A stretch of 64,000 bases of DNA from Tautonia plasticadhaerens (GTDB lineage: Bacteria > Planctomycetota > Planctomycetia > Isosphaerales > Isosphaeraceae), in contig NZ_CP036426.1 of the NCBI RefSeq assembly GCF_007752535.1, positions 8,122,001 to 8,186,000 of the forward strand. Direction: 5' to 3'. Of the stretch, positions 3,850-17,342 are shown piece after piece. The stretch's first letter is position 1. Each line of letters starts with the position of its first letter. The notes under the pieces were generated by a model, which had not been told where the DNA came from, made no database searches, and worked only from the letters and a program-made list of their open reading frames with translations. Made by a program: the position numbers and the translations under genes.

Positions 3850-5235
3850 TCAGTCGGCCGCCCTCGGCGATTCCCCCAGCAGGCGGGCGATCGCGTCCAG
3901 TAGCACGATCTCGACCGTCGGGGCCACCTTCGACGCCCGGTCGCTCGCCTCGTAGCCGACCTGGTCGTAGGCGTGGGCGGTGCCGATGTAGCCGGGGCCG
4001 TAGTCGCCGTAGGCGGCCATGCAGACGAACCGGTCGAGGCGGATCGCCTGGGCGGCGAGCTGGTACTCCACGAACAGCTCGCCCGGCAGGTGCAGCACCT
4101 TCGCCGGCCCGATCGACAGGCAGGAGACCGGGATCGGGTCGCCCGCCCGGCAGCGCCTCAGCCAGGCCAGGCCCCGGGCCGCGGACACCCGGCCCTCGGC
4201 GTCCCCGCCCTCGAGGGTCGCCTCCAGCTCCTCCTCGACCAGGTGTTTCCCCGGCGGCAGGAGCACCGGCACCGCCTCCCACCCCAGATCCCCGGCCGAG
4301 ATCGGGTGCCGGGCCGTCGAGGCGGCCTCCCAGGCCCGTTTCATGCCCTCGGCCAGGCGATCGGCGAGGAGCCGGCGGTTCTCGGGGGCCCCGTCGTTCC
4401 ACTTGCCCGCGCCGATGTTCCCGCCGGCGCCGTCGAAGTGGACGTGGGGCACGCCGGTCTCGTCCTCCCGGGCCTCCCGGGCGAGGCCGGGGAAGTCGCA
4501 CGAGGCCAGCCCGGTGCGGTAGTAGCTCTGGGGATGGGTGGCGTAGTACGACAGGGCGGCGACCGGCTCCTCGCCGTCGAAGAAGGCGAGGAGCTTGACG
4601 TCCGGGTCGATCGTCCCGGCCGGCTCGGCGCGGAGTTCCACGTCCTGGCAGGCGGTGTACCGGGTGGCCCGGACCTTGCCGTCCTCGCCGAGGATCCGGC
4701 GGTTCGAGGCCACCTGCCCGACCATCCCCTCGCCGATGCCGAGGTGGGTGACGGGCCTCGCCTCGTCCTTCGCCTCGCGGGCGGCCTCGGCGGCCCGGGC
4801 GATCACGTCCCGGGCGAAGTCGGGGTCGAAGTAGGACTCGGCCGGGTCGATGCCGTGCTCGACGAGCAGGTCGGCGACGGTGAAGTCGCAGGTCGGCGCG
4901 TCGTGCTGGTGCAGGGCATGGACGGCGACCCGGTCCGGGGTCGTGCCGACCGCCCCGGCGATCGCCCGCTTGAACGCGTCCTGGCCGCCGTTGCCGATGC
5001 CGATCCAGTCGACCGCCACCAGCACGATCGGCCCGCCCTCGCCGACGAGCACCACGCCCTTGCAGTGCAGGGGGTCCTGCACCCCCTCGGTCGGGTCGTA
5101 GGCCATCGGCGTGCCGACCGGCGGCGAGGCGTCCACGTCGAAGGTGCCGACCTTCAACGGCTCGCTCGCCGGGGAGGGCGGTGCGGCCAGGCCGAGCAGG
5201 GCCAGCACCGCCATTGCGACGGAGTCTATGCGCAT
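3850..5235 (-). CDS. Neutral/alkaline ceramidase-like secreted hydrolase
   Basis: A 461-residue protein with an N-terminal signal peptide (MRIDSVAMAVLALLGLAAPPSPAS) and the start of the neutral/alkaline ceramidase N-terminal domain: VGTFDVDASPPVGTPMAY, then VDWIGIGN, then the His-rich HALHQHDAPTC, where His residues of this family bind zinc. Later SYYATHPQSYYR and FDGAGGNIGAGKWND fit the same fold. Eukaryotic ceramidases are much longer; this short form is common in planctomycetes, where the substrate is unknown. It starts 5 nt after the stop of the DUF1080 gene, indicating one transcript. Export to the periplasm is predicted. Confidence 0.82.
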   Translation of the reverse strand: MRIDSVAMAVLALLGLAAPPSPASEPLKVGTFDVDASPPVGTPMAYDPTEGVQDPLHCKGVVLVGEGGPIVLVAVDWIGIGNGGQDAFKRAIAGAVGTTPDRVAVHALHQHDAPTCDFTVADLLVEHGIDPAESYFDPDFARDVIARAAEAAREAKDEARPVTHLGIGEGMVGQVASNRRILGEDGKVRATRYTACQDVELRAEPAGTIDPDVKLLAFFDGEEPVAALSYYATHPQSYYRTGLASCDFPGLAREAREDETGVPHVHFDGAGGNIGAGKWNDGAPENRRLLADRLAEGMKRAWEAASTARHPISAGDLGWEAVPVLLPPGKHLVEEELEATLEGGDAEGRVSAARGLAWLRRCRAGDPIPVSCLSIGPAKVLHLPGELFVEYQLAAQAIRLDRFVCMAAYGDYGPGYIGTAHAYDQVGYEASDRASKVAPTVEIVLLDAIARLLGESPRAAD

Positions 5236-5240
5236 CGGGA

Positions 5241-5969
5241 TCACTCCGGGCTGGTGGGCAGCGGTCGGATGCTGACCTCCTTGAAGAAGACCACGTCGCC
5301 GGGGTCGTGGACCTGGAGGCCGATGTAGCCGGCCCGGGGCCGCACCGGCTCCCGCTTCGGCTCGTACCACTCGGTCCGGGGGGGCAGGTCCTCGGCCTTG
5401 GGGTCGAACTCGGAGAGGCGGACGCCGTCGACGTCGACCGTGACGAGGTCGCCGTCGAGGGTGATGACCATCGTCTTCCACTCCTCGGGGGCCTTCTCCG
5501 GGCTCGACGTGGCCGGGGCGAGGGAGTAGATGGCGCCGGTGCGGTGCAGCGGGTCGGGGAAGTCGCAGATCTGCACCTCGTAGCCGTGGTGGACGGCGAA
5601 CCAGGCGCCGGTCTCGGCGTCGGGGTCGGAGGGGGCCTTGAGCTTCTCCAGGTCGTCGGCCACCCGGACGTGGACCCCGGCGTTGTCCCGGGCGTCCTCG
5701 GAGCGGTAGACGACCCGGATCTGGCAGTCTCCCAGCGTCTCCTTCGTGTAGAGGAGCACGCCGAGGCCGTCGGGCGAGGGGTCCGTCCGCAGGGAGCCGT
5801 CGACCAGGGAGAAGCCGCCCCCGCCGACCTGGGTCCAGGCCTCCCGGTCGAGGGCGGTGCCGTCGAACAGGGGGCGCCAGCCCTCGTCGTCGGCCGCGAG
5901 GCAGGGGGCGGGGGCGGCCCCCCCCAGCAGGATCATCGAGAGCAGGGCGACGCGGGGGGATCGGGGCAT
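5241..5969 (-). CDS. DUF1080 (3-keto-disaccharide hydrolase-like) secreted protein
   Basis: A 242-residue exported protein. After a signal peptide comes the concanavalin-like DUF1080 fold: WRPLFDGTALDREAWTQVGG near the mature N-terminus, SEDARDNAGVHVR mid-protein and YIGLQVHDPGDVVFFKEVSIRPL at the end. Members of this domain act on 3-keto sugars as hydrolases or lyases. ATG 5969 was chosen because GGAGG lies 8 nt before it; the GTG at 5978 overlaps that site. It is the first gene of a two-gene unit with the ceramidase-like enzyme, both secreted. Confidence 0.88.
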   Translation of the reverse strand: MPRSPRVALLSMILLGGAAPAPCLAADDEGWRPLFDGTALDREAWTQVGGGGFSLVDGSLRTDPSPDGLGVLLYTKETLGDCQIRVVYRSEDARDNAGVHVRVADDLEKLKAPSDPDAETGAWFAVHHGYEVQICDFPDPLHRTGAIYSLAPATSSPEKAPEEWKTMVITLDGDLVTVDVDGVRLSEFDPKAEDLPPRTEWYEPKREPVRPRAGYIGLQVHDPGDVVFFKEVSIRPLPTSPE

Positions 5970-6116
5970 GGGATGCACCTCCGGGGGCCTCGGCCGGGGA
6001 GGACCGCCGTCCGGCGTCGACCGGTCGGCCTCCTTTCGGCGGTCGGAAACCCGGAGGATAAGGCCCGATCGCCCCCGTGTCCAGGACCGGCAGCGGGCCG
6101 GGCCGGGCCGGGCGTC

Positions 6117-7199
6117 TCAGCCCCCGAGGCCCCAGTCGAGCCAGTCGTACGCCCGGGCCTGGGCCTCGGGCGGGTAGGCGTGCCCCTGGCGGTGGTTGAA
6201 CAGGCCGAGGGCGTCGGGGGCGCCGAGCAGGCGATAGGCGGGCAGGCAGGCCTCGATGTAGGGCCAGCTCCGGTCGCCGTCGGCCGAGTCGCCGCCGATG
6301 AGCAGGAACGGGCGGGGAGCCACCAGGGCGAGCACCTGGGCGTGGTCGAGGGCGAAGCCGGGCCGGTTGACCGCCTCGCCGTGGTACCAGGGGGCGTCCC
6401 AGTTGGAGTAACCGATGCCGATGCCCCCCTCGCTGGAGACGGTCGCGGCGACCCGGTCGTCGAGGGCGGCCAGGAACAGCGCCTCCTTGGCCCCGAGCGA
6501 GTGGCCGATGGCGGCGACCCGGTCCCGGTCGACGTCGGGCTCGGCCAGGAGCAGGTCGAGGGCGCGCCGGGCGTCGAAGGTCATCTGGGCGGTGCCGGTC
6601 GCCCCGGGGTGGCGTCGGCGCTGCCAGGCGACGGCGTCCTGGTAGCGACCGGGGCCGCCCTGTTCCCAGAGGAAGCAGCGGGGGCAGACGGCGACGTAAC
6701 CCCGTCGGGCCAGGTGCAGGCCGATGGACTTGTCGGCGGGCCCTTCGAGCCCGGCGGGCTGGCGGATCGTGTAGTCGACCGTCGAATGGAGGACGACCGC
6801 GCCGGGGCGGCTGGCGAGCGGGGCCGGGTCGGCCGGGCGGAGCAGGTAGGCCTCGACGAGTCGGCCGGGCTCCGGCTCATACCGGACGAGCAGGCGATCG
6901 ACCGGAGGCTGGCCGTCGGCCTCGGGGGCGACGGTGTCCCGCCCCAGGACGGTCGGGGGCGGGAGCGGGCCGGGGTCGTCGATGCGGCCGAGGAAGTCGA
7001 GCCAGGCGCGTCGCAGCTCGGCCCGGCGGCGCGCCCAGGCGTCGGGCGAGGGGATCGGCCGCCCCCCGGCGTCGAGCAGGGCAGGGGCGGGCCGGTCGGC
7101 ATCCGCCGGGATCGAATCGGGGGGCGTCTGGACCTCGGCCAACCAGGGGGGTGGGGTGCCGCGATCGGGGCGGGGGGCGGTGCGGGACGGGGATCGCAT
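6117..7199 (-). CDS. Alpha/beta hydrolase, dienelactone hydrolase or acetyl-esterase type
   Basis: A 360-residue alpha/beta hydrolase. The nucleophile elbow GHSLG (Ser about residue 231), an acidic candidate in LIGGDSADGDRSW and a C-terminal His in FNHRQGHAYPPEA give a plausible triad. The N-terminal 100 residues form the extension typical of planctomycete acetylxylan-esterase-like proteins. No clear signal peptide is present, so it may be cytoplasmic. GGAGG is 10 nt before ATG 7199. Substrate cannot be told from the sequence. Confidence 0.85.
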   Translation of the reverse strand: MRSPSRTAPRPDRGTPPPWLAEVQTPPDSIPADADRPAPALLDAGGRPIPSPDAWARRRAELRRAWLDFLGRIDDPGPLPPPTVLGRDTVAPEADGQPPVDRLLVRYEPEPGRLVEAYLLRPADPAPLASRPGAVVLHSTVDYTIRQPAGLEGPADKSIGLHLARRGYVAVCPRCFLWEQGGPGRYQDAVAWQRRRHPGATGTAQMTFDARRALDLLLAEPDVDRDRVAAIGHSLGAKEALFLAALDDRVAATVSSEGGIGIGYSNWDAPWYHGEAVNRPGFALDHAQVLALVAPRPFLLIGGDSADGDRSWPYIEACLPAYRLLGAPDALGLFNHRQGHAYPPEAQARAYDWLDWGLGG

Positions 7200-7296
7200 G
7201 GGTCGGCAACCTCCGATCGGTGTTCGATGGGCCGGCTCGTCCCGTTCGTTCATCCGAGGGTGGTGCAGGCGGGGCCGGGCGTCCCGGTCAGAGCCT

Positions 7297-7463
7297 CCCC
7301 TCTCCCCGCTCGCGGGGAGAGGGGGGCAGATCCGGACCCTCGCCCCCGTCTGCGGGGGAGAGGGTGGGCGAAGCCCGGGTGAGGGGGATCGGACGACGCG
7401 AACGGCCTTGCGATCTTGCACCGACCCCTCACCCCAACCCTCTCCCCGCGAGCGGGGAGAGGG
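7297..7463. repeat. Cluster of three GC-rich palindromic repeats
   Basis: Three related hairpins follow each other: 7297-7324 (CCCCTCTCCCCGC with its complement, 2-nt loop), about 7338-7366 (CCCTCGCCCCCG and complement), and 7439-7462 (CCTCTCCCCGC, loop GA). The third is preceded by CCCCTCACCCCAA. The same consensus recurs at 26527 and 34191-34337, always between genes, so this is a dispersed intergenic repeat family. Confidence 0.8.
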
Positions 7464-7532
7464 GGGCGGAGTGCCGGGCGATGCCCGGCGTGAGGGCGGT
7501 CGGCCGGGCCCGGCCCGGACGGCCGGTCGGGA

Positions 7533-8054
7533 TCACTCGGCGCCCTCGGCGGGGGCGGACTCGCCCTCGGCGCCCTTCTTGGCCTTGGGCTTGGGGCCCT
7601 CGGTGGCGCGCTGGGCGCGGGCCTCGATCTTGGCGGCCTTCTTGACCTTGCGGGCCTCGCGCTTCTGGACGCGGGCGGCGGCGGCCTCGGCCTCGCTCGC
7701 CTTGCCGCGGACGCGCTCCTTCAGGCGGACGGCCTTGCCGACGCGGTCCCGCAGGTAGTAGAGCTTCGCCCGGCGGACCTTGCCCGAGCGCTTCACGGCG
7801 ACGTCGGCGATCCGGGGGGAGTGGACCGGGAAGGTCCGCTCCACGCCCTCCCCGGCGACGATCCGGCGGACGGTGAAGACCTCACGGACGCCGCCGCCGG
7901 AGCGGGAGATGACGACGCCGTTGAAGATCTGGATGCGTTCCTTGTCCCCTTCGAGGATCCGGACGTGCACGTCGACCGTGTCGCCGATCTCGAAGTGCGG
8001 GACCGTCTCGCGGAGGCCGGTCTTCTCGACCAGCTCCATCAGGGCGTTCTGCAT
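7533..8054 (-). CDS. rplS: 50S ribosomal protein L19
   Basis: A 173-residue L19 with the full conserved core ([29 protein letters not shown], then [18 protein letters not shown]) in residues 1-115. L19 lies at the 30S-50S interface. The usual protein is about 115 residues; here a lysine/alanine/glutamate-rich tail of about 55 residues is added, which is probably helical then disordered. It is the last gene of the ffh-rpsP-trmD-rplS cluster, 46 nt after trmD. Confidence 0.97.
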
Positions 8055-8100
8055 GGCTGGGGTCCTCGTGTCGGATGACTGCGATTGGATTGATGATCGG

Positions 8101-8781
8101 TCAGGCCGGGGGCCCGGCCTCGCGGCGGTGCCGGCGTCTCCAGCGGTCGATGGCGGCGTGGTCGCCGCCCAGCAGGACCTCGGGGACGCCCAGCCCGCGA
8201 TAGGAGCGGGGCCGGGTGTAGTGGGGATATTCGAGGCCGCCGTCGGGGCCGAAGGATTCGTCGAGGGCGCTCCGCTCGTCGCCGAGCACGCCGGGCACCA
8301 GCCGCATGACCGCGTCGATGACCGCCATGGCCGGGACCTCGCCGCCGGAGAGGACGTAGTCGCCGATGGAGAGGGCCTCGGGCCGGAGCACGTCGAAGAT
8401 CCGCTGGTCGAAGCCCTCGTAACGGCCGCAGAGCAGGACGATCCGGGGCTCCCCGGCCAGTTCCGAGACGAACGCCTGGTCCAGCCTCCGGCCGGCGGGG
8501 GTCATCGCGATCAGCCGGCCGGGCCCGTCGCCGAAGCTCGCCCGCACGGCCTCGACCGCCGAGACGACCGGGGGGGCCATCATCAGCATGCCGGGGCCGC
8601 CGCCGAAGGGGGTGTCGTCGACGCTCCGGTGCTTGTCCAGCGCCCAGCGGCGGATGTCCCAGAGGTCGACCGAGACCAGCCCTCGGCGGATCGCCCGCTT
8701 CAGGATGCTCTCGGAGAGGAACCCCTCGAAGAGGCCGGGGAACAGGGTCAGCACGTCGAACCGCAGGGGCGGCGGGGGCAT
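8101..8781 (-). CDS. trmD: tRNA (guanine37-N1)-methyltransferase
   Basis: A 226-residue SPOUT-class enzyme that methylates G37 next to the anticodon with S-adenosylmethionine. Visible signatures are [15 protein letters not shown] at the start, [12 protein letters not shown] and [11 protein letters not shown] (the trefoil-knot AdoMet site), and the C-terminal helical domain. ATG 8781 fits the family start; the longer frame upstream is not conserved. It sits between rpsP and rplS as in most bacteria. Confidence 0.97.
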
Positions 8782-8930
8782 CGTCGGGTGGACCTGGGCG
8801 GCGGCCGTTCGGGGGGGAGGGTGGGTGACGGATGGTGGGCGACGGAGGTCGGGGATTCGGGATCCGGACCCCGCCATCGGTCATCCGCCACCGGGCGTCC
8901 CCGCCCCGGCGGCCGCGGCGGGCGAGCGGC

Positions 8931-9371
8931 TCAGGACGACGATTCCTCGGCCTTGGCCTCCTCGGCGGCCGGGGCGGCCTCGGCGGCCGGGGCCGGCTCG
9001 GGCTCGGGGGCCGGGGGGGCGGCCTTGGCCTTGGGGGCGGGGCCGCCGGTCAGGTGCGTGGTCTTGGCGCCGGGGGCGGGACGCTCCTCGGCCGGGACGT
9101 TGTCCCAGGGCTCGCCGTTGCCCGGCTTGGTGATGCCGTGCCGCTTGAGCATGGCGGCCACCTTCTCGGTCGGCTGGGCGCCGACGGACAGCCAGTAGCG
9201 GACCCGCGGGGTGTTGAACCACTCCCGGGCCGCCTCGTTGCGCACCAGCGGGTCGTACCAGCCGAGTTCCTCGATGGCGCGGCCATCGCGGGGGGTGCGG
9301 GCGTCCATCACGCAGATGCGGAAGAACGGGCGGTGCCGCCGGCCGAACGACTTCATGCGAATCTTGACCAT
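8931..9371 (-). CDS. rpsP: 30S ribosomal protein S16
   Basis: A 146-residue S16: the conserved domain is residues 1-85 (MVKIRMKSFGRRHRPFFRI, then EELGWYDPL and RVRYWLSVGAQPTEKV). The remaining 60 residues form an Ala/Pro/Glu-rich tail ending in SSS, longer than usual and similar in style to the tail of L19 here. The tail is probably disordered. A 149-nt gap to trmD replaces the rimM gene usually found there. Confidence 0.97.
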   Translation of the reverse strand: MVKIRMKSFGRRHRPFFRICVMDARTPRDGRAIEELGWYDPLVRNEAAREWFNTPRVRYWLSVGAQPTEKVAAMLKRHGITKPGNGEPWDNVPAEERPAPGAKTTHLTGGPAPKAKAAPPAPEPEPAPAAEAAPAAEEAKAEESSS

Positions 9372-9593
9372 CTGGATCGATCACTCCCGGTGGGTCGGGG
9401 CGCGGCTCGGACGCATGTTCGAGGGTCCCAAACTGGCGGGCACCCCCCTGCCCTTGCGCCTCGCAAGGTCGGGGGGCGGGGCCGGTTCCCGAGCCATCGG
9501 CGGCCCCGCGGCCGGGGTCGACCCAAGAGGGTCGGTCCCGGCTCATGCCCTCTCATTCGGCGATCGGCGAGACGTCGTTCCTGTCGTCGGATG

Positions 9594-9639
9594 ACGGCCC
9601 GGCCCCTCGTCGTCTCGCCTGCCGAGGGGGCCGGGCCGT
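9594..9639 (-). terminator. GC-only hairpin after the ffh/M-domain genes
   Basis: A 16-bp stem with one bulged G (9594-9609 with 9623-9639) begins 22 nt past the stop of the last M-domain-like gene. No T-run follows on the minus strand. It probably ends or stabilises the ffh transcript and separates it from rpsP. Confidence 0.5.
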
Positions 9640-9661
9640 GGTTCGGTGGTGGTTCGTGGGC

Positions 9662-10216
9662 TCAGTCGTCGAGGGTGAAGTCCCAGGCGTGGAACTCGCG
9701 ATTCCAGGCCGAATACCAGGGCCCCGCCCCGTGCGGGGGGACGCGGCCGGTCCGGGTCAGGTGTTGCCAGAGTTCCCGGAACTCCCCCGGCTCCGAGGGG
9801 TGGAGCCGGGAGGCGTCGAGCCGGCCGACGCGGCTGTCCGGGGGCACCCGGTCGCCCGGGTCCTCCCCGCGCAACTCCCGCTCGACCGTCCGGAGCAGTT
9901 CGCGGTAGAGGTCGAGCACCGTCGCGACCTGTGCCGGCTCGACGCCCGCCGCGGCGGCGACCCGCCGGGCCCCCTCGGCGTCGATCGCGGCCAGGTCGGC
10001 CCGATCGGCGGGGGTCACGGCGTCGAGGATCGCCAGGTAGCGGTCGACCCCCGCGTCCGGGTCGAGGAGGTGGGGGTCGAACAGCGGGCCGAACAGCTCG
10101 GGCAGCTTGCCGCGGAACGCCTCCCGGATCGTCACCCCCCGGCCCCGAATCTCGGCGATCAGGCCCCGGAAGTGGGAGAAGGTCAGCAGGGAGGCGGGGT
10201 CCCCGGGGTCGCTCAT
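9662..10216 (-). CDS. SRP54 M-domain-like protein, second copy
   Basis: A 184-residue protein of unknown function. Residues about 8-110 align with the M domain of Ffh encoded just upstream: an FxxFRxxI start, then AILDAVTPADRADLAAID, then ARRVAAAAGVEPAQVATVL, matching the Ffh segments around MTPDERRDPHSID and RRIASGAGCEPQDV. The SRP-RNA-binding RRIASGAG is degenerate here (RRVAAAAG) and the methionines of the signal-peptide groove are gone. The C-terminus ends in WDFTLDD, shared with the first copy. ATG overlaps the preceding stop (ATGA), so translation is coupled. Confidence 0.7.
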   Translation of the reverse strand: MSDPGDPASLLTFSHFRGLIAEIRGRGVTIREAFRGKLPELFGPLFDPHLLDPDAGVDRYLAILDAVTPADRADLAAIDAEGARRVAAAAGVEPAQVATVLDLYRELLRTVERELRGEDPGDRVPPDSRVGRLDASRLHPSEPGEFRELWQHLTRTGRVPPHGAGPWYSAWNREFHAWDFTLDD

Positions 10217-10776
10217 GGCCTCGGCCCTCCCGAGGAGGGGTCGAGGGTGAAGTCCCAGAGGCGCTGGTCGCGGTCCTTGTGGTCGGCCAGGGGGCCGATC
10301 GACCGGTCGTAGCGGGCGGGACCGACGAGGTCCCGGACCAGATCCCGGTGCCGGGCCTGGGCGGCCGGGTCGGGCGCGTCCGGCCGGGACCCGGCCGGGG
10401 GGCTCGTCAGGAGGAGGAAGTAATAGGACAGCGCCTCCGGCCAGGGCATGGGCTGTTTCTCGGCGATCATGCCGATGGCGGAGAGTCGGCAGAGGATCGC
10501 TTTGACCCGGCCGGGCTCGACCCCGGCCGCATGGGCGATGCGGCGCCGGGCGAGGCCGTCGATCGAGCCCAGGTCGGCACGCTCCCGCGGGGTCATCGCG
10601 TCGAGGACCGCCAGGATCACGGCGACCTCGGCCCCGGGGGCCCGGACTCGGGCCCAGTAGGGCTCCAGGTTCCGGTGACGGACGACCTCCTCGGCGAGCG
10701 TCCCGGCGTCGATCAGCCGGGCGAGCTGGGATCGGAAGGCGTCGAGGTCGAAGGGGGGGATGGGCCGGTCGCTCAC
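10213..10776 (-). CDS. SRP54 M-domain-like protein, first copy
   Basis: A 187-residue protein that starts at GTG 10776 overlapping the ffh stop (GTGA), so it is coupled to ffh. It lacks NG domains. FDLDAFRSQLARL at residues 8-20 matches FDLDDFRKQIVTM at the start of the Ffh M domain, and LDAMTPRERADLGSID with ARRRIAHAAGVEPGRV matches the core M-domain helices including the RNA-binding arginines. The tail (about 115-187) is not SRP-like and ends WDFTLDPSSGGPRP, resembling the second copy. A role in signal recognition, 4.5S RNA binding or regulation of Ffh is inference from homology and location. Confidence 0.72.
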   Translation of the reverse strand: MSDRPIPPFDLDAFRSQLARLIDAGTLAEEVVRHRNLEPYWARVRAPGAEVAVILAVLDAMTPRERADLGSIDGLARRRIAHAAGVEPGRVKAILCRLSAIGMIAEKQPMPWPEALSYYFLLLTSPPAGSRPDAPDPAAQARHRDLVRDLVGPARYDRSIGPLADHKDRDQRLWDFTLDPSSGGPRP

Positions 10777-12275
10777 GGGTTGGGCCCCCCCTTGCGCTTC
10801 TCCCGCAGCTCCTTCTGGATGCGGCGGGCCTCCTTCTCCCGGAGCTTCTTCTGCTTCTCGCGCTCCTTGGGGGTGAGGCGCTTGCCGGTGCTCTGCTTGG
10901 TGGTCTTGAGGATGGCGCCGGGGTTGAAGGCGCCGGCCTTGCCCAGGCCGGAGAGCATCCGGACGCGGTCCATCATGCTCATCTGCGACATGCCCTTGAC
11001 CATCGCGGCCATGGCGTCGAACTGCTTGACCAGGCCGGAGACGTCCTGCGGCTCGCAGCCGGCGCCGGAGGCGATCCGGCGGCGTCGGCCGATGTCGATG
11101 GAGTGGGGGTCGCGGCGCTCGTCGGGGGTCATGCTGTCGATGATCCCCTGGATGCGCTTGACCTCGGCGTCGGCGTCCACCCCCTCGAGCATCGCCCCCA
11201 TCTGGTTCATGCCGGGGATCTTGCCCATGAGGTCCTTGACCGACCCCATCTTCTTCATGGTGACGATCTGCTTGCGGAAGTCGTCGAGGTCGAACTTCCC
11301 CCTGGCCATCCGCTCCTGCTGGCGCCTCGCCTCGTCCTCGTCGACGGCGTCCTTGGCCGCCTCGACGAGGCCGACGATGTCGCCCATGCCCAGCATCTGG
11401 CCGACGATCCGCTCGGGGTCGAACGGGTCGAGCCGCTCCAGCTTCTCCCCCATGCCGACGAACTTCACCGGCACGCCGGTGACCTGCCGGACCGACAGCG
11501 CGGCGCCGCCGCGGGCGTCGCCGTCGAGCTTGGTCATGATGACGCCGTCGAGCTCCAGCGCCTCGTTGAAGGCGCCGGCCGAGGCGACGGCGTCCTGGCC
11601 GGTGAGGGCGTCGCAGACGAAGTAGACCTGGTGGGGGCGGACCTTCTTCTCGATCTTCTTGAGCTGGCCCATCAGCTCGTCGTCGACGTGCAGGCGGCCG
11701 GCGGTGTCGAGGATGACGGTGTCCCGGCCCAGCTTCTCGGCCTCGAGCACGCCCTTGCGGCAGACCTCGACGGGGTCGGCGGCGGCGGGGTCCTCGGCGT
11801 GGACGGGCACGTCCAGCTGCCGGCCGAGGACGAGGAGCTGCTCGATGGCGGCGGGGCGCTGGAGGTCGGCGGCGACCATCAACGGCTTGCGGCCGAGCCC
11901 GATCAGCCGCCGGGCGAGCTTGCCGCAGGTGGTCGTCTTGCCCGAGCCCTGGAGGCCGCAGAGCATGATGACCGTCGGCCCGGCCTTCTCGAACCGGATG
12001 TGGGGGTCGCCCTCCCCCATCAGCTCGATCAGCTCGTCGTGGACGATCTTGACGATCTGCTGGTCGGGGCGGACGCTCTTGATCAGCTCCTGGCCGGCGG
12101 CCTTCTCGGTCACGCGCTTCATGAAGCGCTGGACGACCTCGTAGTTGACGTCGGCCTCCAGCAGGGCGGTGCGGACGGCCCGCAGGCCCTCCTGCATGTT
12201 GGCCTCGGTCAGCTTGCCCCGGACCTTGAACCGGCCGAGGGCGTCCGACAGGCGGTGCTGGATGTCGTCGAACAT
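10773..12275 (-). CDS. ffh: Signal recognition particle protein Ffh (SRP54)
   Basis: A 500-residue GTPase that binds signal peptides and 4.5S RNA for cotranslational targeting. N domain residues 1-95, G1 loop GLQGSGKTTT near 108-117, G3 DTAGR, G4 TKLDGDARGG, then the methionine-rich M domain from about 320 with IDSMTPDERRDPHSID, RRRRIASGAG and KQFDAMAAMVKGMSQMSMM. The length is a little above the usual 450 because of a basic C-terminal tail rich in Lys/Arg. It heads a cluster in which the next two genes are M-domain paralogs. Confidence 0.97.
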   Translation of the reverse strand: MFDDIQHRLSDALGRFKVRGKLTEANMQEGLRAVRTALLEADVNYEVVQRFMKRVTEKAAGQELIKSVRPDQQIVKIVHDELIELMGEGDPHIRFEKAGPTVIMLCGLQGSGKTTTCGKLARRLIGLGRKPLMVAADLQRPAAIEQLLVLGRQLDVPVHAEDPAAADPVEVCRKGVLEAEKLGRDTVILDTAGRLHVDDELMGQLKKIEKKVRPHQVYFVCDALTGQDAVASAGAFNEALELDGVIMTKLDGDARGGAALSVRQVTGVPVKFVGMGEKLERLDPFDPERIVGQMLGMGDIVGLVEAAKDAVDEDEARRQQERMARGKFDLDDFRKQIVTMKKMGSVKDLMGKIPGMNQMGAMLEGVDADAEVKRIQGIIDSMTPDERRDPHSIDIGRRRRIASGAGCEPQDVSGLVKQFDAMAAMVKGMSQMSMMDRVRMLSGLGKAGAFNPGAILKTTKQSTGKRLTPKEREKQKKLREKEARRIQKELREKRKGGPNP

Positions 12276-12319
12276 GGGGACGTACCGTGATCGCCGCGTT
12301 TCGTGGTCGCGAATCGCCA

Positions 12320-12348
12320 ATTCTAACGATCGCGCCGACGCCCGGCAA
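12320..12348 (-). promoter_or_regulatory. Sigma70-type promoter of ffh
   Basis: Minus strand: TTGCCG (12343-12348) and TAGAAT (12320-12325) with a 17-nt spacer. Transcription would start near 12313, about 38 nt before the ffh ATG. Confidence 0.6.
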
Positions 12349-12430
12349 TGGCATCCGATCGGCCGTCGGGGGCCGCCCCGGCGAGGCCGGCCGGGATCGT
12401 CGCGGGGCGGGCCCGGCGGCCGGTGGGACT

Positions 12431-12708
12431 CGGGCGGTGCGCCGATGGCGATTCGGCGATTCTGAGACAAGGCAAGGAGTTGCGCCGAAGAAATGGGTTC
12501 GCTCGGCGCCGTGCACACCGGGGAGGCGGCGGCGAGGACCGGGGAACACCCCGGCCACCCGGCGGACGGAGATCCGGGGCGAGAACGGTGCGGCCGGTGC
12601 GCCGGGACGTTCGCGGGCGGTGCGCCAAACTCGAATTCGAGATTCCCAGGCGAGACAAGGGGTTGCGTCGAGCAATTGGGTTCGCTCCGTCGCGGCGCAC
12701 CGAGGAAC
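12431..12708. repeat. Imperfect 95-bp direct repeat upstream of ffh
   Basis: Two units, 12431-12525 and 12614-12708, align without gaps over at least 80 nt at about 72 percent identity by eye; both begin CGGGCGGTGCGCC and share ATGGGTTCGCT/ATTGGGTTCGCT. The spacing is 183 nt. No gene covers them. They could be two copies of a small dispersed element. The rest of the 860-nt gap to 13137 holds an AT-richer pocket at 12861-12905 with nothing identifiable. Confidence 0.6.
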
Positions 12709-13081
12709 GCCCGAGGATCGGCGGGCGATCCGGGGTGACCCGGGATCGCGTTGTCCCGCAACCCCTCCGGCCCGGGGTGGCTGGGATCCGCGCAGCGGCC
12801 CCCGGCGACGGGCACCTCCCGACCGGGTGCCCGCCCCGCTCGACCCCGGCCACCCCCGAGGAAATCATTGCTATTGAGAACGCATCAAATGGTCCATGTG
12901 GGCATCTCTGGAGTGCCGTCAGCCGTTTCCGTGTGGCGCCGGAACAATGGGACCGGAGGACCGGGCGCAGGAGGGCCGGGACGCCGGGGGCGTCGGAGGG
13001 GGATCGGGGGGCACGGGGGGCGGTTTTCGGCACGTCGAGCAGGCCCGCGCAGGGGGAAGTTTGGCGGGGCCGAACGGACGA

Positions 13082-13110
13082 CCCCTCCCCTATAAGATCG
13101 TGGGGAGGGG
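13082..13110. terminator. Hairpin with T-run on the plus strand
   Basis: A 9-bp perfect stem CCCCTCCCC/GGGGAGGGG with an 11-nt loop is followed by CGTTTT on the plus strand. It lies 28 nt past the stop of the minus-strand LamG-like gene and could end transcription in either direction; the T-run favours the plus strand. Confidence 0.45.
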
Positions 13111-13137
13111 CGTTTTCAGTCACACGAACCGGCGCCC

Positions 13138-14031
13138 TCAGCGGTCGAGCAGCGGGGAGCCGTCCCGGGCGATCTCGGCGAGCGTGGCGACCTCGTCGGC
13201 GGAGAGGGGGCGGTCGAAGACCATCAGGTCGTCCATCAGGCCGGCGTAGCCGAGGCCGAGGAAGACGACGGCCTCGTCGGGATCCCAGGTGTAGACCTGG
13301 TTCCGGCCGGAGACGGTGCCCTGGGGCCGGCCGTCGAGGTAGAGGCGGGCCTCGCCGTCGGCCCGGCCGGTGTTGAAGCGGTCGAAGGTGATGGCGACGT
13401 GCGTCCACCGGCCGGAGGCGAAGGGGGTCTGATCGACGACCACCACCGGCTTCTCGGAGGCGGGCATCGTCTCGAAGTCCTTGTTCTCGGGGTTCCAGAC
13501 CTCCAGGTCGGCCAGGACGCCGAGCCGGAAGACCCGGGGGCGGTCGTCCCTGGTGAAATCCGTCCAGATGGCGGCGTCGTTCCAGGCGCTGTCGGTGATC
13601 TGGATCGGGTCGGCGAAGCGGGGGGGCAGATCCGTCTCGGGGTCGAGGCTCAGGAAATAGGAGATCGTGCCGGACCAGCCGTCGGGGCCGGAACCGGGGG
13701 GGGTGTAAGGGAGGTTCCCCGGGACCCTGTAGAAGTGGGCCCGGGTGTTCTCCGGGGAGAACCGGAGGGCGCCCCCGGCCCGGCCCCCCTCGGCCAGCCG
13801 TTCGAGGCCGGGGCCGGCGATGCCCTCGACCGGGTCCTCCCGGGAGGCCGAGGCGGAGGAGTAGAAGGTGGGATCTCCCCGGGCCAGGTCGGCGTCGAGG
13901 CCGTCGTCGAAGCTGACGGCGAAGGTGAGGGACTCGGCCATCGACGCCGGCAGCGGCCCGTCGGCGGCGGTCGCCGGGGCGGTCGCGGCGAGGGCCAGGA
14001 GCAGGGGGAGGCAGGGGCGGCGGTCGGTCAT
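13138..14031 (-). CDS. Secreted LamG/concanavalin-like domain protein
   Basis: A 297-residue exported protein. A signal peptide (PLLLALAATAPATAA) precedes a single jelly-roll domain: LTFAVSFDDGLDAD near the mature start, then WTHVAITFDRFN, ARLYLDGRPQGTV and YAGLMDDLMVFDRPLSADEV, the classical LamG-like end. Such domains bind carbohydrates or surfaces and need no catalytic residues. GGAGG lies 8 nt before ATG 14031. No enzyme module is attached, unlike many planctomycete LamG proteins. Confidence 0.85.
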   Translation of the reverse strand: MTDRRPCLPLLLALAATAPATAADGPLPASMAESLTFAVSFDDGLDADLARGDPTFYSSASASREDPVEGIAGPGLERLAEGGRAGGALRFSPENTRAHFYRVPGNLPYTPPGSGPDGWSGTISYFLSLDPETDLPPRFADPIQITDSAWNDAAIWTDFTRDDRPRVFRLGVLADLEVWNPENKDFETMPASEKPVVVVDQTPFASGRWTHVAITFDRFNTGRADGEARLYLDGRPQGTVSGRNQVYTWDPDEAVVFLGLGYAGLMDDLMVFDRPLSADEVATLAEIARDGSPLLDR

Positions 14032-14123
14032 CGGCGCGTCCTCCGGTCGGTCGTTCGGTCGCGGCGGGTCGGAGCGTGGGCCGCGATCATCTTTATCCGA
14101 CGGGAGGGGGGATTCCCAGCGGG

Positions 14124-14789
14124 TCAGGGGAGGAGGTCGGGTCCCCCCGGGGCGTCCCCCCCTGCCCTCCGGGCGCCGGAGTGGTCCGCGTAGGTGGCCC
14201 AGGAGGGGGCGTAGCCGTCGACGGCCTGGAGGCCCCAGGAGGACCAGCCGGGGCGGGTGCCCCGGGCGAAGAGTTCGAGGTGGGGGCCGGGGGAGCAGGA
14301 CTCGATGATCGGGTACTGGGCGTCGGGCTTGCGGCTGTGCTCCTGCTTGCGGGAGGCCAGCAGGTTGACCTGGCGACGGCCGGCGGCCAGGGTCCGGGCG
14401 TTGCGGCCCCGGACGCCGAAGAGGAGCAGCTCCGTGACGTTGCGGAAGTAGAAGCCGACGCCCCGGCCATCGCTGCCGCCGTCCTTGCGGACCTTGTGCC
14501 AGACGAGGTTGGCCTTGTAGCGGAAGCCCCAGGCCGAGAGCACGGCCAGGCCCTCGGGCAGCAGCGCGTTGGGGACCCAGAGGTAGAGGTGGGCCGGCTC
14601 GTCGACGACCCGAGAGACGGGCAGCGCGGCGATCTCGTCGAGGGTCATCGTGCCGTACCGGCTGAGGCGTCGGTGCTCCGGGGCGACCTTGCCGGTCCGG
14701 TTCTGGAACCGCCAGGGTGGGTCGGCCAGGACCGTCCGGAAGCGGCGGTCGGCGGCGAAGGCGAGCAGGTCGGTCGAGGGGCTGGTCAT
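14124..14789 (-). CDS. MT-A70-family adenine N6-methyltransferase
   Basis: A 221-residue protein with the catalytic DPPW motif at about residues 23-26 (VLADPPWRFQNRTGK), followed by the MT-A70 pattern LPVSRVVDEPAHLYLWVPNALLPEGLAVL, GFRYKANLVWHK and the C-terminal SRKPDAQYPIIES. The family transfers a methyl group to N6 of adenine in DNA or RNA. It is short, has no target recognition domain and no restriction gene nearby, so it is an orphan enzyme whose substrate is unknown. It is transcribed away from the membrane protein at 15099. Confidence 0.9.
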   Translation of the reverse strand: MTSPSTDLLAFAADRRFRTVLADPPWRFQNRTGKVAPEHRRLSRYGTMTLDEIAALPVSRVVDEPAHLYLWVPNALLPEGLAVLSAWGFRYKANLVWHKVRKDGGSDGRGVGFYFRNVTELLLFGVRGRNARTLAAGRRQVNLLASRKQEHSRKPDAQYPIIESCSPGPHLELFARGTRPGWSSWGLQAVDGYAPSWATYADHSGARRAGGDAPGGPDLLP

Positions 14790-15098
14790 CGTCGGGGGCC
14801 GCTCCGGCTCCGGGGGCGCGTCGGATCACCTTGAGCCTACCATCGTCCCGGCCCGGCGGCCCGGCGGCCCGTCGGCCCGGCCGGCTCGCCGCCCCGGGGC
14901 CGGGCCCTTGTGCCGGGCCCGCGACCGCCTGTCTAATGACGAGAGGCCGGTCCAGGGATTCTGGGTAAAATGGGGATTCTCCGCGACGGCTCGATGGTGC
15001 GAGCCGGGTGCGTGGGTCCCCGCGAGGGCCCGGCCGATCGCCGACCCCGGGCCGCGGTGCCGCCCGCCCGGCGAGGTGAGGGGAAGTGGAGGTGGGTG
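14790..15098. other. Divergent gap, weak promoter only
   Basis: 309 nt between divergent genes. A TAAAAT hexamer at 14966-14971 could be a plus-strand -10 box, but no -35 partner is visible. Nothing else was found. Confidence 0.3.
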
Positions 15099-17342
15099 AT
15101 GGGTGGGGGAGATGCGCGGGTGGTGGACGCCTCGAGACGCCGGGGCCGGTGGATGTGGAACTTGATCGCCCTTTGCAGCGGCATCGGGGCGGTGCTGCTG
15201 CTGCTGGTCGGGCTGGGGTCGGCCGCCTACCTGGTCGCGGTCCCGCTGCTGGGGCTGGGGGACGTCGCCTACCGGGCCGAGCCGTCGTCGATCGTCTGGG
15301 CGGTGCTCGTCTCGTCGCTGGCGGCGTCGACGGCGGTCGTGCTGCTGACGGCGCTCGTGGCGGCCCTGGTCCTGCGGGCGAGCCGGGAGGCGGCGCCGCT
15401 GTTCGGCCGGACGGCGCTGGCCCGGCTGCTCGGGCTGGGGGTGATCGCGTATTTCTTCCGCGAGTCGATCGGGGCGATCCTGCGATCGGTGGGCGAGTTG
15501 CTGGGATCGATCTGGCTGCTGATCCCGAACGCCTCGTCCCGGCTGATCGAGCAGCTCCTGAGGTGGCCGGGGGACTTCGACCAGCCCGGGCTCCAGGCGG
15601 ACGTCGTCGGCATCTTCTTCGAGCAGCTCCAATACGTGGTCTCGTTGCTCACCCGCCAGTTGCTCACGACCTTCCCCCTGGTCGACCTGGTCCTGATCCT
15701 GGCGGCCTGGGCCGTCGTCGGCCGGGCGTTCGGCCCGATCGGCGAGGGGCGGGGGGCCGGGGGCGGGGAGGCCCGGCCGGGCGGCCTGGTGGGGGCGATC
15801 CGGGGGATGGACCGCGTCACCAGGTGCAACATGGTGCTCTTCCTGCTAGTCGCGATCGCCCTGTACCTGAGCGTCGCGGCGATCGTCACGATCCCCTGGC
15901 TCCAGGAGTTCGACGACCCGACCGTGCCGACGTCCCAGGCCCTGCGCGAGCGGCTGGTCGGGCTCTCCCCCAGCGACGAGACGTTCGCGGGGCGCTTCCC
16001 CGCGGACCTGACGATGCCGGCCGACGGCACGGCGGAGGGGCTGGGCCGCGCCATCACCGAGGCCGAGGGGGAGATGGGAGCGGCCCCGGATCGCGACCGG
16101 GTGGCGGCGGCGATCGCGCAGGCGAAGGCCGACCTCGAGCAATATGCCGAGGAGAAGATCGATAAGTTGAATGCCTACCGGGGGGACCGGAACTACGTCC
16201 TCGACGAGCTGGCGCGGCTGCGCGAGCGGGCGTGTTCGTCCTACCAGTCGGCCGGGATCATCGGCAACGGCCGGAAGGAGCGGCTGTCCTACTTCCAGAG
16301 GCTCGAAGGCTGGTATGAGGGCAACATGCACAGCCTGCTCGTGGGGTTGCAGTATTCGAAGGGGTCGGCGATCCGGTTCGGGGAACGCCAGGACGAGTTG
16401 CTGGGCCAGGCGGAGGATCGGCTCCGCCTGGCACTGGCCGACGAGCCCCCGCCGTTGGGCACCTTCGTCCCCTTCCCCGAGTACCTCCCCGGGCGGGCGT
16501 CTCCCGCGATGCGGAACGCGTTGCCCGGGCTCCCCGGGCTGGACGACCCGACGGCCCCCCCCGGCCAGGAGGTGGGCGTGGTGGGGTCGATCGTCCCCTC
16601 GCCGCCCCCGCCGGGGCTGGATCTGGGGCCGTTCAACTTCGTGGCGGGGTGGCTCCTGCGGACGCGATCGCTGGCGCTGTCGCTGATCATCGGGATGCTC
16701 GGGTTCGGGCTGCTGGGGTCGGCGGTGTCGACGTTCGTGCGGGAACAATCGGCCCGGGAACGGACCCGGGAGGACGGGGGCCCGCTCGTCACCGACCTGA
16801 CCGGGGTGGTCTTCCGGGGGTTCTCGGCGACGATCGTCGTGTTCCTCGCGGCCGTCGGCGGCCTGGCGATCTTCGGGTCGGGCCAGGCCGACCCCAATCC
16901 GTACGTCCTGTTCTTCGGCTGCCTCGTGGGTGCCGTGTTCAGCCAGGAAGTGTGGGCCTGGGCCCGCAATCACTTCCTCAGTGTGGAAGACGCCCCGCCC
17001 GACGTACCGCCTGCCACTCCCAGCGTAACGCCGGACGACCAAGACGTACCGCCGGCCCCCGGCGGCGTACCGTCGGACGATCCCGACGTACTTCCGGCCG
17101 CCAAAACTGTGTCGCCGGCCGCGGACGACGTAAGCTCAGGCGACCCCAACGTACCACCGGCCCGGGACGAGCCGAAGCCGGATCGGCGATCCCGCTCGGA
17201 CGAGCAGCGGCGCGAGGCGGTCAGGCGGTTGGAGGCGGGAGGATCGCCCGAGGAGGTCGCCGGGCGGTTCGGCGTGACGACGAAGACGCTGCGGAACTGG
17301 CAGAGGAACCCCCGCCTCCGGCCGGACGCCGGGCCGGGCTAA
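15099..17342 (+). CDS. Multi-pass membrane protein with C-terminal helix-turn-helix
   Basis: A 747-residue protein; ATG 15099 has GGAGG 6 nt upstream. Hydrophobic segments occur near residues 25-45, 65-95, 105-125, 190-212, 245-265, 525-550 and 575-620. Between them (about 275-500) lies a soluble region with helical stretches and no recognised domain. After a Pro/Asp/Val-rich linker of degenerate repeats (xDVPPAxxxVxPDD, about 630-690), the last 45 residues read as a helix-turn-helix of the IS3/IS911 type (RREAVRRLEAGGSPEEVAGRFGV.. then TLRNWQRN). The combination suggests a membrane-bound DNA-binding protein. The function is unknown; there are no transposase features elsewhere. Confidence 0.8.
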   Translation: MGGGDARVVDASRRRGRWMWNLIALCSGIGAVLLLLVGLGSAAYLVAVPLLGLGDVAYRAEPSSIVWAVLVSSLAASTAVVLLTALVAALVLRASREAAPLFGRTALARLLGLGVIAYFFRESIGAILRSVGELLGSIWLLIPNASSRLIEQLLRWPGDFDQPGLQADVVGIFFEQLQYVVSLLTRQLLTTFPLVDLVLILAAWAVVGRAFGPIGEGRGAGGGEARPGGLVGAIRGMDRVTRCNMVLFLLVAIALYLSVAAIVTIPWLQEFDDPTVPTSQALRERLVGLSPSDETFAGRFPADLTMPADGTAEGLGRAITEAEGEMGAAPDRDRVAAAIAQAKADLEQYAEEKIDKLNAYRGDRNYVLDELARLRERACSSYQSAGIIGNGRKERLSYFQRLEGWYEGNMHSLLVGLQYSKGSAIRFGERQDELLGQAEDRLRLALADEPPPLGTFVPFPEYLPGRASPAMRNALPGLPGLDDPTAPPGQEVGVVGSIVPSPPPPGLDLGPFNFVAGWLLRTRSLALSLIIGMLGFGLLGSAVSTFVREQSARERTREDGGPLVTDLTGVVFRGFSATIVVFLAAVGGLAIFGSGQADPNPYVLFFGCLVGAVFSQEVWAWARNHFLSVEDAPPDVPPATPSVTPDDQDVPPAPGGVPSDDPDVLPAAKTVSPAADDVSSGDPNVPPARDEPKPDRRSRSDEQRREAVRRLEAGGSPEEVAGRFGVTTKTLRNWQRNPRLRPDAGPG

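Follow-up and report, generated by a model that had tools for sequence, protein, structure and literature searches.

SRP54 is found almost everywhere in life, and its division into three domains is usually treated as invariable. What, then, are the two short reading frames that follow ffh, the SRP54 gene, in the planctomycete Tautonia plasticadhaerens, and do they represent an M domain that has been set free from the rest of the protein? Here, we describe these frames, M1 and M2, in a window of 64,000 nucleotides (the whole stretch of DNA that was analyzed), their likely origin and their counterparts in other Planctomycetota. The original prediction reported two ORFs of 187 and 184 residues directly after ffh, linked by GTGA and ATGA overlaps, and this arrangement was seen: the GTG of M1 overlaps the ffh stop codon (GTGA at 10773-10776), and the ATG of M2 overlaps the M1 stop codon (ATGA at 10213-10216). 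On the minus strand, the gene order is ffh, M1, M2, rpsP, trmD and rplS (Table 1). No rimM lies between rpsP and trmD (8878-8930), where it stands in E. coli.

Table 1. Features of the ffh-M1-M2 locus (window coordinates) and related genes in other genomes (coordinates within the locus named)
Feature	Position	Strand	Remarks
ffh (SRP54)	10773..12275	-	N, G and M domains complete; starts at the ATG of MFDDIQ
M1	10213..10776	-	Free-standing M-domain paralog, 187 aa; GTG start
M2	9662..10216	-	Second free-standing M-domain paralog, 184 aa; ATG start
Inverted repeat	9594..9640	.	G+C-rich, 3' of M2; found by eye; lacks a T-run
Candidate rpsP leader RNA	9404-9507	-	Just 5' of rpsP
rpsP (S16)	8931..9371	-	Next gene 3' of M2; from the ORF list, with tblastn synteny in relatives
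trmD	8101-8877	-	After rpsP
rplS	7533-8054	-	After trmD
M-only gene, g32 genus	L060 3627-4076
M-only gene, g32 genus	L095 4553-4981	-
M-only gene, g32 genus	L096 4222-4575	-
60-codon ORF, G001	L061 2842-3024

M1 and M2 look like real coding sequence, because their G+C content by codon position (0.77/0.53/0.93 in M1 and 0.78/0.51/0.95 in M2) resembles that of the neighboring genes and the codon period changes frame approximately where M2 begins. Open frames on the strand opposite ffh, M1 and M2 were discounted as G+C-rich. The inverted repeat that follows M2, similar to those seen in two genomes of the same genus (G001 and G003), is possibly the end of the ffh-M1-M2 transcript; a terminator scan of positions 9300-12700 returned 0 sites. 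The only check for a viral or mobile origin was a PHROGs search, in which M2 had no match at E <= 0.1 and the end part of M1 weakly matched a 453-position family (0.036). The 9.4 Mb genome carries one SRP RNA above the Rfam cut-off, and within positions 5000-16000 of the window Rfam gave, at E <= 1, a single weak and unrelated match (Pseudomon-groES, 0.62).

The stretch just 5' of rpsP also holds a candidate leader RNA, with no Rfam family match at E <= 1. It is represented by 15 distinct sequences, from the window and 14 relatives, and the motif is missing in some family members. Its hairpin, GGGGCCG...CGGCCCC, shows compensating changes when paired by eye (GAGGCC/GGCCUC, AAGGCC/GGCCUU and GAAGCC/GGCUUU), and its loop, GGCUCGG, could pair with CCGAGCC shortly 5' of the start codon to form an H-type pseudoknot, also recognized by eye.

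The Ffh encoded in the window scores 530.8 bits against TIGR00959 (cut-off 473.2), with matches to PF00448 and PF02881 and with 99.3 bits against PF02978 (SRP_SPB), the M-domain entry. Against PF02978, M1 scores 27.2-28.7 bits (E 5e-6 to 1.2e-5) and just passes the cut-off of 27, and M2 scores 22.3-23.8 bits (E 2e-4 to 4e-4) and falls under it; the higher figures (28.7 and 23.8) come from the genome search. BLASTP aligns M1 (35%, E 1e-12) and M2 (32%, E 1e-9) to their own Ffh, with the best segment over the M domain in both cases, and the two to each other (30%, E 6e-8). A profile of M1 and M2 searched against PDB sequences returned Ffh/SRP54 as the top 17 rows and as 21 of 23 rows overall (best E 6e-5); M1 alone reached Ffh at E 0.017 at best. 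Neither protein matches PF00448 or PF02881 at E <= 1, so both lack the N and G (GTPase) domains, as had been claimed. At the level of sequence, the resemblance to the M domain is beyond chance.

Some details of the alignment differ from what had been proposed. Similarity running from FDLDxFR to RRIAxxAG was claimed for both proteins; M2 lacks the FDLDxFR start, retaining FR alone, and reads VTPADRADLAAID and RRVAAAAG. The WDFTLD motif is present in both copies, as suggested, and in M1 it is not the C-terminal end, since eight further residues follow.

An AlphaFold2 model of M1 was built from an alignment in which M1 was joined by M2 and by the M domain of the Ffh from the window, an input that may favor that fold. 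Mean pLDDT is 57, rising to ~80-92 over core residues 48-107, and residues 124 to 187 are mostly without a confident fold. Among the 50 Foldseek rows listed for this model, all those with a probability of at least 0.9 are Ffh/SRP54, and the lowest E-value belongs to a mitoribosome chain from Toxoplasma (probability 0.84); E-values were ~0.05 and above, with no match at E <= 0.001. In VIA-align, where helical bundles without kinship can score up to Z ~13, the M1 model aligned with 4xco_D (Z 11.2, 2.2 A over 90 residues), 1hq1 (Z 10.8, 1.4 A over 76) and the mitoribosomal chains 9i05_AI (Z 8.6) and 6z1p_AT (Z 8.4), and, outside the SRP and mitoribosomal chains, the highest score was Z 6.1. M1 is thus predicted to adopt the M-domain fold. 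The profile and fold comparisons proposed along with the original prediction both gave matches to SRP54 M domains, and the observation is confirmed: M1 and M2 are M domains of SRP54/Ffh type that stand alone and have diverged.

As the best-conserved half of M1 and M2 is the helix-turn-helix (HTH)-like core of the M domain, one might ask whether this half now binds nucleic acid, or acts in autoregulation, in the ffh-rpsP region. The weak fold matches (Z ~4) do include homeodomains and further HTH chains, but they lie far under the top SRP54 rows, three-helix folds commonly give matches of this kind, and neither M1 nor M2 matches an HTH family in Pfam at E <= 1. We consider such a role very improbable.

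We compared M1 and M2 with 110 distinct Ffh M regions, 109 of them planctomycete (many from the family of the window) and one from E. coli, and use E. coli numbering for positions. We take the region of S397, R398, R401, G405 and K418 to be in contact with SRP RNA, as in E. coli M-domain:4.5S RNA structures. R398, R401, G405, G407 and K418 are invariant in all 110 Ffh sequences, and S397 is present in 95. The series S397/R398/R401/G405 becomes L, A, R, A in M1 and E, G, R, A in M2, and K418 is replaced in both. A degenerate RNA-binding motif had been ascribed to the second copy; it is found there and in M1 too, where R398 and G405 have both become alanine. The suggestion that the proteins could bind 4.5S RNA therefore looks unlikely, the altered residues being ones that do not vary among the 110 Ffh. 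The claimed scarcity of methionine is borne out: over roughly the M region, M1 has 3 and M2 has 0, compared with an Ffh mean of 11.2 (range 5-20). In the sequences of M1 and M2, neither the SRP-RNA site residues nor the methionine-rich signal-peptide groove of a functional Ffh/SRP54 is kept. A lone M domain without the GTPase, the RNA residues and the methionine groove cannot act as an SRP, and it is unlikely that M1 and M2 load signal peptides as Ffh does.

To place the two proteins, a main tree of 53 rows was built, including 18 proteins that consist of an M domain only (M-only), with a bootstrap that was not quite settled. M1 and M2 group with 16 Ffh of their own family (support 98/97), and in a 40-row tree, where the window Ffh is the sole family Ffh, they join it with support of 96/91. 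Their branches are very long, 1.79 and 2.68 changes per column, so their placement within the family is unsure. Since they fall inside their own family's Ffh, the tree indicates that M1 and M2 arose by local copying of the 3' end of ffh; duplication and strong divergence would have followed.

Searching 45 genomes of the family with PF02978 (two were incomplete and had no match) brought up no additional M-only gene, a result that leaves room for copies of even greater divergence; in G033, the same search gave a weak partial match in a 480-aa frame, taken from the search output. The nearest relative by ffh is G001 (dS 0.23, compared with 0.41 for G002 and 0.47 for G003). At the equivalent site, with the same GTGA overlap, G001 has a 60-codon ORF that joins the FDLD start of M1 to the tail of M1 (61% over 49 residues), the M core being absent. 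In G002 and G003, the M1/M2 site is no more than a short gap, and the genes are absent. Given this remnant and the gaps in G002 and G003, M1 probably predates the split between the window genome and G001, and the M core would have been lost in G001. A match to the M1 tail in G014 (C1:989615-989824, E 9.8e-4) was rejected as an unsupported frame; it lies opposite a frame that, by eye, we presume to be proC-like.

Searching 392 Planctomycetota genomes with the M1+M2 profile (E <= 1e-6, with mostly 8 candidates scored per genome) returned M1, M2 and a 149-aa M-only ORF in G049, the remaining matches being frames of 437-703 aa taken as Ffh; no donor lineage for M1 and M2 was found by this search. 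The order ffh-M-M, which was to be sought in other planctomycetes, occurred neither there nor in the PF02978 search of family genomes, and two tandem M-only genes were not seen outside the window genome. A single M-domain gene directly between ffh and rpsP does occur in other planctomycete lineages, as described below.

Are M1 and M2 being maintained? Constraint on the two genes is weakly supported by their sequences, and this is the main argument for a close rival to our preferred explanation, namely that they come from a passing duplication of the 3' end of ffh, evolve with little constraint or none, and will go the way of their counterpart in the sister species. Comparing the M1 tail with the G001 ORF gives dN 0.27 and dS 0.29 over 42 codons, with differences spread evenly over codon positions, so that this tail looks nearly unconstrained; ffh in the same genome pair has dN/dS values of 0.038/0.23. 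Between M1 and M2, differences by codon position are 0.44/0.48/0.43 over 152 codons, with no third-position excess, and 0.27/0.24/0.41 over a 41-codon core, where such an excess is seen. Decay would also fit the in-frame remnant in G001, the missing genes in G002 and G003, the lack of M-only matches in the other family genomes searched and the length of the two branches, and open frames could persist because a G+C content of ~75% leaves few stop codons. Against it stand the full length of both frames, their normal composition as coding sequence and their overlaps of exactly 4 bases, an M core that has some third-position excess and folds confidently, and W-D-F-T-L-D kept in both copies. We regard the transient duplicate as distinctly possible, if tentative.

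The wider phylum bears on this choice. A PF02978 search of the 392 genomes, with 36 followed up, together with a profile for a family of 100-aa M-only proteins, identified M-only genes in 37 genomes, all of which were checked in sequence. They comprise all 16 genomes of group f30, 7/7 of f26, 6/6 of f81, 3/3 of f76, the one genome of f54, three of the four genomes of g32 and the window genome. Dropped from this count were G300, G324 and G331, in which ffh is split across two contigs; G323, in which an ffh end runs up to the edge of a contig and another match lacks tblastn support; and G338, likewise without tblastn support. A 172-aa frame in G431 (27.2 bits with neighbors) was read and kept apart as weak.

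M-only genes lie mostly beside ffh or directly before rpsP. In f30, the gene is directly 5' of rpsP (87-301 nt) in 14 of 16 genomes (L104-L109, L111 and L192-L200), a site that ffh occupies in the window and in the remaining relatives examined; the exceptions are G261, with rpsP 1.5 kb off, and G329, a short contig without rpsP. Where M-only gene and ffh share a contig (8/16), they are ~8-22 kb apart and on opposite strands in six of the eight. The 10 genomes of f54, f76 and f81 have a 100-aa M-only gene between ffh and rpsP. In f26 (L097-L103), three of seven genomes have the gene immediately upstream of ffh and in the same orientation, one has it upstream on the other strand, and three have no ffh within the stretch retrieved. 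A DUF6576-like stretch (PF20216, E 0.0064 to 2.9e-7) was also noted near the C-terminus of all six f26 proteins scanned, of seven, passing the cut-off in two. In g32, the gene is directly upstream of ffh in G049, G057 and G434, and G387 has none.

A scan of named genomes extended the 100-aa family to 59 loci, whose titles name Planctomycetota groups in 58 cases (many of them Phycisphaerae/Sedimentisphaerales) and an 'uncultured bacterium' in one. At these loci, ffh ends <=700 nt upstream in 41, 1.5-1.9 kb upstream in 15 and is not seen in 3, and rpsP starts <=700 nt downstream in 44, further away in 3 and is not seen in 12. The identification of this family as an M domain is good but not conclusive, being drawn from sequence comparison and modeling. 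Its members match PF02978 weakly (24/37 at E <= 0.1, best 5e-4), and its profile reaches SRP54 in the PDB at E 0.87, level with unrelated rows. Of six weaker genome matches to the profile, five were ffh and one an unrelated frame (G223). A model made without Ffh in the alignment has a pLDDT of 80.5, a best Foldseek E-value of 0.057 and, against 2ffh, Z 10.2 with 5.0 A over 96 residues, values that helical bundles can reach.

By the main tree, the M-only genes would form at least three separately derived lineages. A single clade of all 18 M-only proteins is rejected (AU p 0.0275), and six label changes are needed, at least four of them forced by well-supported branches, with gains and losses indistinguishable. 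A separate origin from the remaining lineages appears best supported for the window and g32 genes, because each groups with its own Ffh; f30 and f81/f76 have long branches and an unsettled placement.

Some of the losses seen in M1 and M2 recur in these lineages. Among the 18 M-only proteins aligned, G405 and K418 survive in two, both from g32 (G049 and G057), and R398 is kept in 15, the exceptions being M1, M2 and the f76 protein; R401 is replaced by glutamate in all five aligned f30 proteins. The other M-only proteins have 1-6 methionines, of which the f30 protein of G112 (6) and the f26 protein of G248 (5) are inside the Ffh range, and the two young g32 copies have 11 and 9. Within the g32 genus, three stages can be seen, from a near-intact M-domain copy to one without the RNA-site glycine: G049 keeps the listed positions, G057 is without R401, and G434 is without G405 and K418.

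Pairwise dN/dS is well under 1 in the other M-only lineages (f81 0.042/0.43; f26 0.039/0.168; g32 0.18/0.62; f30 0.257/0.738 and 0.225/1.34); between f81 and f76, dN is 0.54 and dS is saturated. That comparable genes elsewhere have a low dN/dS counts against M1 and M2 being mere decaying duplicates. The explanation we prefer, at a rough probability of 45%, is that M1 and M2 are a young instance of a recurrent splitting off of the M domain, giving small accessory proteins, at the ribosome exit or in the SRP pathway, that keep its fold and are free of RNA and GTPase. After copying of the ffh 3' end in this lineage, duplication and strong divergence, M1 and M2 would keep the M fold, work without SRP RNA and without a GTPase, and be made together with Ffh from one message. 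The other M-only genes are like them in being free-standing, near ffh or rpsP, and in having lost Gly405 and Lys418 in all examined but the two g32 copies; they differ in their low dN/dS, in their tails (such as the DUF6576-like one of f26) and, at least for g32, in their apparently separate origin.

What such proteins would do is suggested by a known system. The original prediction knew of no described stand-alone M-domain family in this position; taken in general this does not hold, because MAP67/mL105 is one, in mitochondria. The excerpted texts describe it as a stand-alone M domain at the mitoribosome tunnel exit, with a C-terminal helix that enters the tunnel in Tetrahymena and an association in Polytomella with density taken for an insertase (PMC8321541, PMC7326499, PMC9576764). 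It is proposed to go back to a copy of Ffh from which N and G were lost, and some lineages have extended its C-terminus (excerpt of PMC8321541). M1 and M2 are alike in being lone M domains from an Ffh copy, and mitoribosomal chains of Toxoplasma and Tetrahymena match the predicted M1 fold. MAP67/mL105 is eukaryotic and mitochondrial, whereas M1 and M2 are bacterial, their neighbor is an intact ffh, and their genome also encodes an SRP RNA. Because M1 and M2 group with the Ffh of their own family, the main tree, which holds no MAP67 sequence, speaks for a separate origin. Ffh/SRP54 itself shares with M1 and M2 the sequence profile, the predicted helical fold, the origin and the gene neighborhood, and differs in that M1 and M2 lack N and G, are methionine-poor, have R398, G405 and K418 replaced and carry an extra C-terminal tail with WDFTLD.

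By analogy with mL105, M1, M2 and their counterparts may attend the ribosome exit and the nascent chain, or they may tune the SRP. A more specific form of the second idea makes M1 and M2 regulators that pair with Ffh or FtsY, or occupy the Ffh site on the ribosome, and so damp or tune targeting. The overlap with the ffh frame, the recurrent placement beside ffh and the survival of the M fold after loss of the GTPase, the RNA residues and the methionines would suit it, but the altered SRP-RNA residues argue against competition mediated by RNA, and we think it improbable. The broadest reading, in which Planctomycetota have repeatedly split off and kept an RNA- and GTPase-free M domain at the ribosome exit, convergent with mL105, so that a second, lone M domain would be part of the co-translational targeting machinery in several lineages, with M1 and M2 the newest and a paired case, strikes us as rather unlikely in that full form.

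M1 and M2 are real and well identified, and they belong to a recurrent pattern for which we found no description in the open-licence literature, as excerpted, nor one of any bacterial stand-alone M-domain protein. The recurrence across Planctomycetota is a stronger find than the M1/M2 pair. If lone M domains did arise repeatedly in this phylum, shed the RNA site and stay under selection, the M domain must be useful independently of SRP RNA and the GTPase, and mitochondrial mL105 would have bacterial counterparts. The stages seen in g32, from a fresh copy to a heavily changed protein, make this evolutionary path testable.
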